Source: an uncultured Oscillospiraceae bacterium
GTDB taxonomy: Bacteria; Bacillota; Clostridia; Oscillospirales; Oscillospiraceae
Length of the DNA: 56,545 nucleotides
Direction: 5' to 3'
Assembly: GCA_949916125.1 (NCBI GenBank)
Contig: CATLEJ010000002.1
Location: forward strand, 1-56,545
Shown piece by piece: positions 626 through 22,828 of the stretch. The stretch's first letter is position 1; every line of letters starts with the position of its first letter. The notes under the pieces are model-generated. The model was given only the letters and a program-made list of their open reading frames with translations, made no database searches and was not told the DNA's origin. A program made the position numbers and the translations under genes.

Positions 626-1909
626 TCACAGGGCCAGCCTCAGCTTAAACCATCCGTTCTCCACCCGAAACGAGCATACGGCCTGGTATTTTTCCGCGAA
701 GGCGGCAATGGAGCGGGTGCCGATGCCGTGTCCGGCGCTCCGGGGGACGGGCAGGCCGTCCTGGCCGAAGCGCACGTCCTCCCCGCAGGGGTTGGAAAAC
801 TCCAGCATCAGGCAGGGGGAGCCCATGCACTTGCAGGTGATGCGCCGCTTTTCCGCAGGCAGGTCCCGCACCGCGTGGATCATGTTTTCCAGCGCGTTGG
901 CAAAGACGGTGGACACCTCCACGGCGGGCACGGGCAGCTCGGCGGGCAGGTTGATCTGCGTCTCCACCTGGATGCCCAGCTCCTGCGCCTGGCGGATATA
1001 GCTGCTCAGCACAGCGTCCAGGGCGGGGTTGGCGCAGTAGCGCTCCACCGCCGTGGCGGCCAGCGCCTGCTCGGAGACGCCGATATAGTCCAGCGCCGCC
1101 TTTGTGTCGTTCTGCTGGAGCATGGCCGCGATGGCCAACAGCCGGTGCCTCATGTCATGGCGTTCACAGCGGTACCGGTCCTCCGCGTCCCGCAGCTCGC
1201 CCACCCGCTGCTCCATCATGGCGGACTGGATCTCAAAGGTGTGCTGCCGCTCCCGGGCGTGGAACAGCTCGTCCTGCTGGAGCAGTACGATGAATATGGT
1301 GGCATAGGTGAGGGGGAGCAGGATCAGCATCATGACGGCGGCGGGCATATCCTCCGGCCGCTGCCGCAGGTTGGTGGGGATTGCGCTCATAATGGTCAGC
1401 GTGACGTAAAACAGGCCGGTCATGGCGGCGAACAGCCACCAGCCCCGGCTGACGGTGCGCAGCAGGAGCAGGTAGGGCCTGCGGACGAAGCGCCACCCGA
1501 CGTATATCATGACCGGAAGGGCCGCGACCCGCAGCACAAAGATGACCAGTCCCTCGCCGCCCACCGCGTAGTCGATCAGGTTTGTGGCCATCATCATCCA
1601 GATCACCGCGGTGTCCACCAGGCAGAACGTAAAGAAGAAGCGCCCGCCCCGGTGCTTCGCCGCAATCCAGAAGTAGAGCAGGCTGGGCAGGGTGGCGGTG
1701 AGCAGGGTGTAATTCCCCTGCACCTCAATGCCGTATGCGATCATAATGTACAGGTTCCCCCCAAACCAGAGCGCCAGGAAGGGGACCAGGGAGCACGCGT
1801 ATACCTTCGGCGGCCAGCGCGGCTCAAAGAGGATCAGGAATACGATAATAACCGCGAACATGGCAAGCGCGGTCGTCCATTCCACCAGGTACTGATATTG
1901 CAGGTTCAA
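626..1909 (-). CDS. Membrane sensor histidine kinase with C-terminal GHKL ATPase domain (AgrC/LytTR-partner type)
   Basis: Hydrophobic N-terminus (several TM), RHDMRHRLLAIAAML H-box-like segment, NALENMIHAV N-box, GHGIGTRSI G-box; start proposed at TTG 1909 after GGGAGG; longer ORF upstream is the structured leader. Confidence 0.85.
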   Translation of the reverse strand: MNLQYQYLVEWTTALAMFAVIIVFLILFEPRWPPKVYACSLVPFLALWFGGNLYIMIAYGIEVQGNYTLLTATLPSLLYFWIAAKHRGGRFFFTFCLVDTAVIWMMMATNLIDYAVGGEGLVIFVLRVAALPVMIYVGWRFVRRPYLLLLRTVSRGWWLFAAMTGLFYVTLTIMSAIPTNLRQRPEDMPAAVMMLILLPLTYATIFIVLLQQDELFHARERQHTFEIQSAMMEQRVGELRDAEDRYRCERHDMRHRLLAIAAMLQQNDTKAALDYIGVSEQALAATAVERYCANPALDAVLSSYIRQAQELGIQVETQINLPAELPVPAVEVSTVFANALENMIHAVRDLPAEKRRITCKCMGSPCLMLEFSNPCGEDVRFGQDGLPVPRSAGHGIGTRSIAAFAEKYQAVCSFRVENGWFKLRLAL

Positions 1910-1976
1910 GCGGCGTTTCCTCCCATCAGGCCATTGCCCCCGGCGCGGAACGGCCGGGACAGCGGGGAGCCTCAGT

Positions 1977-2143
1977 GTACCATAAATACAAGCCGTTTTC
2001 ACGGCTTGTACGCCGTAAATACGGCGGCAACCGGCAAAGCCGGTTGCTTTTATGGTGCAACATTCGCAACGGCATTTTGCTTGCAAAATACCGCCCGCTT
2101 TGCGGGCCCGCCGTGCTATGCACGGCGGTTGCGGATATTGTAC
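1977..2143. repeat. Two tandem cloverleaf-like multi-hairpin structures in the leader of the sensor kinase gene
   Basis: Closing stem 1977-1986/2049-2058 around hairpins TACAAGCCGT-tttc-ACGGCTTGTA, CGCCGT-aaat-ACGGCG, GCAACCGGC-aaa-GCCGGTTGC; second closing stem 2055-2070/2128-2143 around three further hairpins. Confidence 0.85.
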
Positions 2144-2157
2144 CACACCCGGCGCCG
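2110..2157 (-). promoter_or_regulatory. Putative sigma-A promoter for the sensor kinase (TTGACG-N18-TACAAT on minus strand)
   Basis: Minus strand reads ...TTGACGGGACGGCGCCGGGTGTGGTACAATATCCGCAAC...; the TACAAT box lies inside the outer stem of the second cloverleaf (coordinates approximate). Confidence 0.5.
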
Positions 2158-2176
2158 TCCCGTCAACGCCTATGTC

Positions 2177-21193: not shown

Positions 21194-22608
21194 GCCGGCT
21201 CACCCCCCGGGGCGGCGGACAGTTCCGCGGCCTGGGCGTCCGCCGCCTCCTGGATCCTCCGCTTCACCCGGCGGATCAGGGGCACCGCCAGAAACAGGGT
21301 GAGCACGTCCGCCACCGCCTGGACGGCGGCTACGCCGTTGGCCCCCCAGGCCCAGGCCATGGGGTAGACAATGGGCAGGAAGCAGGTGCCCTGCCGGGAG
21401 GTGGACAGCAGCAGCGCCCCCCGGGCGTTGCCCAGCCCCGCGCAGAACATATTGACCACCGCCACCCAGCCGTGTATGGGCAGCACCAGGCATTGCAGGC
21501 GGATGCACAGCGCCCCCACCGCCAGCATCTCGGCGGACTGGTCGGACTTGGCGAACACGCCGATCAGGGGGTCGGCCAGCGCCGCCAGCGTCAGGCCCAT
21601 CACCAGCGCCCCGGCGATGGCGGCCCGGGAGGCAAAGCGGTAGCTCTCCTTCACACGGTCATACTGCTTCGCCCCCCAGTTGAAGCCCGCCACCGGCTGG
21701 AACCCGGTGCCGAAGCCCAGGATCACGCCGAAGGGGAACATCATCACCTTGGTGGACACGCCCACCCCGGCCAGCACCGCGTCGGAGATCCCCCCGGCGA
21801 TGTTGTTGAGCACGATGGCCGACACCACCGCCAGCCCGGAGCGGAACATGGACGAGGAGCCCACGGTAAAGACCTGGGTGAGGATGTCCCGGCTGGGCCG
21901 GAAGCAGCGGACGGACAGGCGCAGCACGCTGCGCCGGGTGAGGTAGGGGAACACCAGGATGGCAAAGCTCACCATCTTGGAGATGGCGGTGGCCAGGGAC
22001 GCGCCCGCCACCCCCATGTCAAAGTTGAAGATAAAGATGGGGTCCAGGAAGCAGTTCAGCACGCCGCCGAAGCCCATGCCGATCATGGAGCGCAGGGCGC
22101 TGCCCTCCGCCCGCAGGCACTGGTTCATCACAAAGTTGGCCGCCATGAAGGGGGCCACCAGCAGCACATAGGTGGCGTACTCCACGGCGAACTGCTCGCA
22201 GGTGTCGGTGGCGCCCAGCAGGCGCACCATGGGGTGCAGGAAGCTCACGCCCAGCAGGGTGACCACCCCGCCGAAGATCATGGCCACAAAAAAGGCCGTG
22301 GACAGCACCCGGTCGGCCTTTTCCTTCTCCCTGGCCCCCAGCAGGCGGGAGATATAGCTGGCCGCGCCCACCGCCAGCATGGACCCGGCCATCATGATAA
22401 TCTGGTCCAGAGACGCGTTGACGCTGATGGCCGCCTGGGCGCTCTCCCCCAGGTCGCTGACGAAGTAGGTGTCCGCCAGATTGTAGATGGATGTGATCAG
22501 AAAGGAGATGATGGAGGGCAGGGCCATCTTGGTGATCACCTTGGGCAGCGAGCCCTTGAGCATCATGTCCTCCCGCTGCTGCTGCCGCGCTTTCTCTGTC
22601 TGTGCCAT
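21190..22608 (-). CDS. MATE family efflux transporter
   Basis: KMALPSIISFLITSIYNLADTYFVSDLGESAQAAISVNASL...; the MATE start (22608) is upstream, so its 3' end overlaps the MarR start by 4 nt. Confidence 0.92.
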   Translation of the reverse strand: MAQTEKARQQQREDMMLKGSLPKVITKMALPSIISFLITSIYNLADTYFVSDLGESAQAAISVNASLDQIIMMAGSMLAVGAASYISRLLGAREKEKADRVLSTAFFVAMIFGGVVTLLGVSFLHPMVRLLGATDTCEQFAVEYATYVLLVAPFMAANFVMNQCLRAEGSALRSMIGMGFGGVLNCFLDPIFIFNFDMGVAGASLATAISKMVSFAILVFPYLTRRSVLRLSVRCFRPSRDILTQVFTVGSSSMFRSGLAVVSAIVLNNIAGGISDAVLAGVGVSTKVMMFPFGVILGFGTGFQPVAGFNWGAKQYDRVKESYRFASRAAIAGALVMGLTLAALADPLIGVFAKSDQSAEMLAVGALCIRLQCLVLPIHGWVAVVNMFCAGLGNARGALLLSTSRQGTCFLPIVYPMAWAWGANGVAAVQAVADVLTLFLAVPLIRRVKRRIQEAADAQAAELSAAPGGEPA

Positions 22609-22828
22609 TGGGGTATTGCCTCCCTGTTCGTTTCATTTGCAACTGTTTCATCTGGCACTATATCATACCCCCCGAACGCGGCTTTGTCAAGCCCCTTCCC
22701 GCTCCCTTCACTGACGCCGCAGGGTGTCAAAAGGGGCCGGCTTGCTTTTTGGGGCGTCTTCTGTTATACTACACAGGTTCCCCAAAGCGGTGGGACAGCA
22801 GCATCGTCAGAGAAAGGAAGTGACGTCC

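Follow-up and report, generated by a model that had tools for sequence, protein, structure and literature searches.

Several kinds of small mobile or repeated DNA resemble the locus described here in part. PATEs and other non-autonomous IS200/IS605 derivatives are short, non-coding and palindromic, insert in one orientation and carry no terminal inverted repeats. REP/REPIN elements are GTAG-headed hairpins with RAYT, and they persist in genomes as dispersed intergenic palindromic repeats. MITEs, BOX, RUP and Correia elements are small non-coding mobile repeats with flanks that look like target duplications, and putative mobile promoters are similar promoter-bearing sequences that lie ahead of unrelated genes. 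Bacterial mobile elements usually settle in terminators, repeats or tRNA genes, where they do little harm. REP/REPIN elements with RAYT are modelled in PMC8049555, and the terms for putative mobile promoters and "promoter propagation" occur in PMC9208149. No relevant published description of promoter- or -10-targeting elements was found in the open-access literature searched. The structure at the present locus, in a window of 56,545 nt (the whole stretch of DNA that was analysed), is very probably mobile DNA: an element of about 154 bp, non-autonomous and non-coding, inserted in fixed orientation at extended -10 boxes of the form TGnTAyAAT with one 9-nt box left on each side. Its mobility is deduced from comparison of sequences among copies.

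Positions 1960–2160 of the window folded with -107.5 kcal/mol on the plus strand and -111.2 kcal/mol on the minus strand (z of -7.60 and -7.81, respectively), and none of 200 shuffles folded as well. Segment 1974–2148 formed two cloverleaves with three hairpins each on either strand. The first-pass annotation had placed six hairpins and two closing stems at these positions, and folding confirmed them; its description of a strong structure of no known family also held (z about -7.6 on either strand, with no shuffle as good, and no Rfam score near the gathering threshold). It had further proposed a shared GTGC arm with mutually exclusive outer stems. This agreed with the fold, in which the middle segment GTTGCACCA (minus strand, 2061–2053) can pair either with the 5' end, closing unit 2, or with the 3' end, closing unit 1, so that the outer stems compete. 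The strand that matters biologically is the minus one, which also carries the kinase gene. The element was limited by two 9-nt boxes with 154 nt between them, TGGTACAAT at 2145–2137 and TGGTACACT at 1982–1974, and the covariance model R2 matched 1974–2148 with 168 bits. The features of the locus are as follows, in the order of the minus strand.

2161–2166, minus strand: -35 hexamer TTGACG of the predicted native promoter, from the sequence, 18 nt upstream of the left -10 hexamer
2137–2145, minus strand: left 9-nt extended -10 box TGGTACAAT, the copy of the target site, from the alignment of copies and the single box at empty sites
1983–2136, minus strand: putative inserted element, 154 nt, two cloverleaves, with boundaries from empty and filled sites of other copies
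2109–2127, minus strand: unit 2 hairpin 1, CGCCGTGC-ata-GCACGGCG, from the fold; helix 2 of alignment A5, 8/8 pairs varying on both sides
2093–2107, minus strand: unit 2 hairpin 2, GCCCGC-aaa-GCGGGC, from the fold; helix 3, 6/6 pairs covarying
2071–2092, minus strand: unit 2 hairpin 3, GGTATTTTG..CAAAATGCC, from the fold; helix 4, 9/9 pairs covarying
2053–2061, minus strand: middle guide-like segment GTTGCACCA, complementary to both 9-nt boxes with conserved mismatches
2027–2047, minus strand: unit 1 hairpin 1, GCAACCGGC-ttt-GCCGGTTGC, from the fold; helix 6
2011–2026, minus strand: unit 1 hairpin 2, CGCCGT-attt-ACGGCG, from the fold; helix 7
1987–2010, minus strand: unit 1 hairpin 3, TACAAGCCGT..ACGGCTTGTA, from the fold; helix 8
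1974–1982, minus strand: right 9-nt -10-like box TGGTACACT, gene-proximal and without a -35 hexamer, from the alignment of copies and the count of -35 spacings
626–1909, minus strand: downstream gene for a GHKL-domain sensor kinase (Pfam PF14501, E 5.5e-10), with a TTG start 65 nt behind the element

No gene was recognised within the 154-nt element (1983–2136). The gene preceding it, also on the minus strand, encoded a sigma-54-type regulator. Elsewhere in the window, a bacterial large SRP RNA (Rfam RF01854, 200.7 bits) was located at 127–391 on the minus strand, and its gene was enclosed by a 132-nt inverted repeat with arms at 1–132 and 386–517 that were 95% complementary.

A DNA search of the same genome found two fragments and a second full copy (C5, 89%). 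Diverged copies stood at other places in related genomes. Covariance models were built from seven copies (R1, alignment A3) and from 13 copies (R2, alignment A4). With these models, 7 of the 42 genomes of the genus yielded 13 full copies; in the family, 32 of 401 genomes, from 16 of 106 genera, had matches (E ≤ 1e-5). An alignment was made of 53 full copies from relatives in the Oscillospiraceae. When GTDB genomes were searched with a gapped DNA pattern, 56 stretches were obtained, about 49 of which were confirmed by the covariance model. Confirmed hosts included Flavonifractor, Intestinimonas, Ca. Fimivivens and two strains of Anaerotruncus colihominis, DSM 17241 (complete genome) and JM4-15. 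The model did not confirm seven bacterial stretches from unrelated taxa or the one viral stretch, and these served as a useful negative control. Viral carriage was rejected, the single pattern match among viral contigs being no element. A. colihominis carried on the order of 15–20 copies and Fimivivens more, and some copies stood in tandem with one common box (G201:C85; Fimivivens). Among the strong covariance-model matches there was no coding (autonomous) copy; strong partial matches lay at contig ends.

The six hairpins in two cloverleaves were kept in all aligned copies. In A3, a sequence-only MAFFT alignment of seven copies that was not fitted to the covariance model, compensatory changes were found in 20 of 69 pairs. 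The 13-copy alignment A4 and the enlarged alignment A5 (58 rows, including a few opposite-strand self-hits) were fitted to the model and therefore lean towards it; compensatory changes occurred in 39/69 pairs of A4, and 66/69 pairs of A5 changed on both sides. The latter contained 789 double-change cells compared with 187 in shuffled alignments, and 95.7% of its cells were paired compared with 72.7% when shuffled and 31–43% when slid. Covariation across homologues, which the first-pass annotation had proposed as a test, was found decisively, in the unfitted A3 as well as in A4 and A5. In the hairpins, G-T pairs made up 2.1% and A-C pairs 1.3% of the cells (49 and 31 cells, with the opposite-strand self-hit rows left out), and so few G-T pairs are unlike typical structured RNA. 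Judged from these alignments, either selection acts on the fold or the fold is actively maintained. The shares of G-T and A-C pairs suggest a role at the DNA level (single strand, cruciform or palindrome repair) more than a role as RNA.

At an xseB-like promoter in two species, the element was identical (0 differences in 175 nt; L042 5914–6088 and L043 1852–2026) while the flanks differed, which suggests either conservation or recent exchange. Two A. colihominis strains (L371 and L388) had the same target and the same right unit at a gltX-like promoter and different left units, a short hairpin in one strain and a full cloverleaf in the other; the units seem to be exchangeable modules. Diverged elements with different hairpins were present at L054 (5999–6137), L055 (449–582) and L061 (5937–6092). 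The first of these, ahead of a Fic gene, retained the plan of box, hairpin, middle segment, hairpins and box, and the other two, ahead of other genes, retained it less clearly.

The full copies were bounded on the left and right, on the plus strand of the element, by TGnTAyAAT or a close variant, and the orientation of the element relative to the boxes was almost always the same. Orthologous empty sites contained one box where filled sites read box, element, box. Ahead of degV, the empty site was CTTGAAATGATATAATCAGGC in G013 and G009, and the filled site of G023 was the same as the empty one up to TGATATAAT, followed by the element and then by TGATATAATCAGGC. Ahead of ilvD, G011 was empty (CTTTGTGATACAATACCGG) and G010 was filled. 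Further pairs of empty and filled sites were found in genus g23, and two between A. colihominis strains, L383 (TGGTACAAT) and L375 (TGGTATAAC). Two different subfamilies occupied the same target at L168 and L179 (G063 and G271). A TTG at the -35 position, 17–18 nt before the hexamer of the left box, was present in 18 of 48 copies, compared with a chance rate of about 5% for a random 5-nt window, and in none for the right box. The left box is therefore probably part of genuine sigma-A-type promoters, and the native -35 and -10 pair at the present locus is a predicted promoter, from its consensus and position. One insertion, L158, was located at an operon junction instead of a promoter (empty site TGGGCTGAT).

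The right box lay 23–69 nt before the start codons of unrelated, codirectional genes supported by Pfam; two of the 12 genus copies (L046 and L047) had no codirectional gene start close behind. The genes behind the right box encoded the kinase, an xseB-like product (named by eye, with no Pfam match), an L,D-transpeptidase, an S41 peptidase and a NUDIX protein, or were ilvD and degV. Variant or partial copies preceded glyA, a Fic gene, a MATE-like transporter gene and others. In A. colihominis, as read from sequence only, copies preceded ligA-, gltX-, ispE- and parA-like genes, a helicase gene and tRNA-Leu. The first-pass annotation had placed the structure in the leader of a sensor kinase gene. 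It does lie just upstream of the GHKL kinase gene, but it is not tied to the kinase, because it also stood before ilvD, degV, glyA, ctpA, a NUDIX gene and many others, and the same promoters of relatives were without it. The element is evidently a mobile insertion into the kinase promoter and no dedicated leader.

A cis-acting RNA, such as an attenuator or riboswitch in the 5' leaders of the genes it precedes, would account for a structure that is strong, covaries and lies shortly before coding sequences on the same strand, and a transcript from the left box would include the element. This reading is highly improbable: the downstream genes had no common pathway, the same promoters were empty in close relatives, G-U pairs were very few with A-C pairs nearly as many, and no Rfam match was found. 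Neither functionally related genes nor constant presence at orthologous genes was observed, and a riboswitch or attenuator was rejected on the unrelated genes and the empty sites. In 24 of 51 copies the left and right 9-mers were the same, where permutation gave 10 (within genera, 23 against 16, p 0.001), and the excess of matches was confined to the variable positions 1, 3 and 6, with none outside the 9 nt. This supports the reading of one box left on each side of the element. It also favours a miniature element of the conventional sort, mobilised by a DDE (cut-and-paste) transposase with a staggered 9-bp target duplication, as do the right boxes of L053, L173, L174, L154 and L375, which copied an odd target base against the middle segment. 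Such an element is nevertheless rather unlikely, since there were no terminal inverted repeats (by eye, the ends RTNNGC... and ...CTA/CGA did not match each other), the asymmetric target was always read one way, which is unusual for such transposases, and the right box was at times unlike the target. A simple, exact 9-bp duplication was contradicted by L158 and L171.

The right box looked element-supplied in L158, L171 and L181. This would fit a PATE-like, non-autonomous IS200/IS605-type element, in which a Y1 HUH transposase inserts a single strand 3' of a target read by a guide, the right box being the element's own. Fixed orientation, hairpins and the lack of terminal inverted repeats agree with this model, as does an internal guide complementary to the target and the right end. 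The middle segment was complementary to both boxes with conserved mismatches; its base R4 (G or A) predicted whether the left box carried C or T (Fisher p 8e-5, with related copies not fully independent), and at position 3 it agreed with the right box in 44 of 47 copies and with the left in 36, all eight discordant cases having the same direction. Insertion 3' of the target without duplication fitted L158, L171 and L181 but not L375, L154, L053 and L173; at L375 the unusual target base was in the right box, the reverse of the model. A left box that is always the target and a right box that is always the element's were contradicted by L375, L154 and L173. Y1_Tnp (PF01797) had matches in 13 of 25 element-bearing genomes and was not found in the complete A. 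colihominis genome (G445), JM4-15, Fimivivens, G117, G192 or G159, all of them hosts with many or recent copies. The genomes without a match included G445, G446, G447, G117, G192, G159, G246 and G129, and none of the Y1 genes checked for neighbours had an element beside it. IS200/RAYT mobilisation was rejected on this absence from key hosts and lack of linkage elsewhere, and the IS200/IS605-type model is quite improbable. A circle with a single -10 box that recombines site-specifically with chromosomal boxes (tyrosine-recombinase-like, the overlap being mixed as in Tn916) would explain a target-derived box on the left or on the right (L158 and L375, respectively) and the tandem copies with a common box in G201:C85 and Fimivivens. 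This model does not predict the excess of identical boxes without chance or repair, and is unlikely. No one simple mechanism accounts for every copy, be it duplication, a carried right end or exchange of strands within the box.

The element would fold as single-stranded DNA or as a cruciform during transposition, and the middle segment, by pairing with both boxes, may help to choose the target. The -10 box left beside the gene would spare expression after insertion and so may allow survival before essential genes. The native -35 and -10 pair would now start transcripts inside the element, which would become a 5' leader, and the right box may act as a second extended -10 promoter. No transposase or recombinase was linked to the element. 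A more tentative proposal, possible though doubtful, is a new class of mobile element: folded DNA whose own guide segment pairs with -10 boxes, guides an enzyme to the -10 region that is single-stranded in open promoters, a -10 box being restored behind the element to keep host genes on. If true, an element that lands on the most sensitive bases of a promoter and leaves a box at either side would solve the problem of harm in a different way, and would rewire the transcription starts of many genes of common gut bacteria. With its guide-like complementarity to TGnTAyAAT, the choice of target can be tested directly in a cultured species.

A second family in A. colihominis was a 109-nt repeat, tandem and dispersed, with each unit bounded by TGGTATAAT and each box given its own inverted partner (GGTATAATAACCGC/GCGGTTATTATACC and ATTATACCATGCCGC/GCGG.CATGGTATAAT; DNA fold z -8.8). 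It was often located directly behind the first family, and formed tandem arrays of 6–9 units in CP102255.1 (about 22088–22740 and 395879–396882) in addition to many dispersed copies. The plan thus recurs in this family as box, inverted partner, hairpins and box.

When compared with PATEs and other IS200/IS605 derivatives, the element is likewise short, non-coding and palindromic, without terminal inverted repeats, inserted in one orientation and provided with an internal segment complementary to the flanking target and the right end. In some respects it resembles them in how it works. It differs in its 9-nt promoter box target, the box on both sides, the two full cloverleaves and the several host genomes without a Y1 transposase. 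It shares with REP/REPIN elements the nature of a dispersed intergenic palindromic repeat that persists in genomes, but it sits at a -10 box and is not a GTAG-hairpin REP: the alignment contained no conserved GTAG-type motif at the element ends, and A. colihominis, like several other hosts, yielded no RAYT-type Y1 protein. Membership of IS200/IS605 or REPIN is not claimed, because element-rich genomes lacked Y1 and because, in the tested genomes that have it, it was not linked to the element. The small size, non-coding nature, mobility and duplication-like flanks recall MITEs, BOX, RUP and Correia elements, from which it is set apart by the lack of terminal inverted repeats, an asymmetric promoter-motif target and internal covarying cloverleaves. 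As with putative mobile promoters, a similar promoter-bearing sequence lies ahead of unrelated genes, whereas this element inserts into existing promoters, leaves a second -10 box, has exact junctions at empty sites and keeps a covarying fold. It is apparently an undescribed variant among non-autonomous mobile repeats, and there is a real chance that its targeting principle is new.
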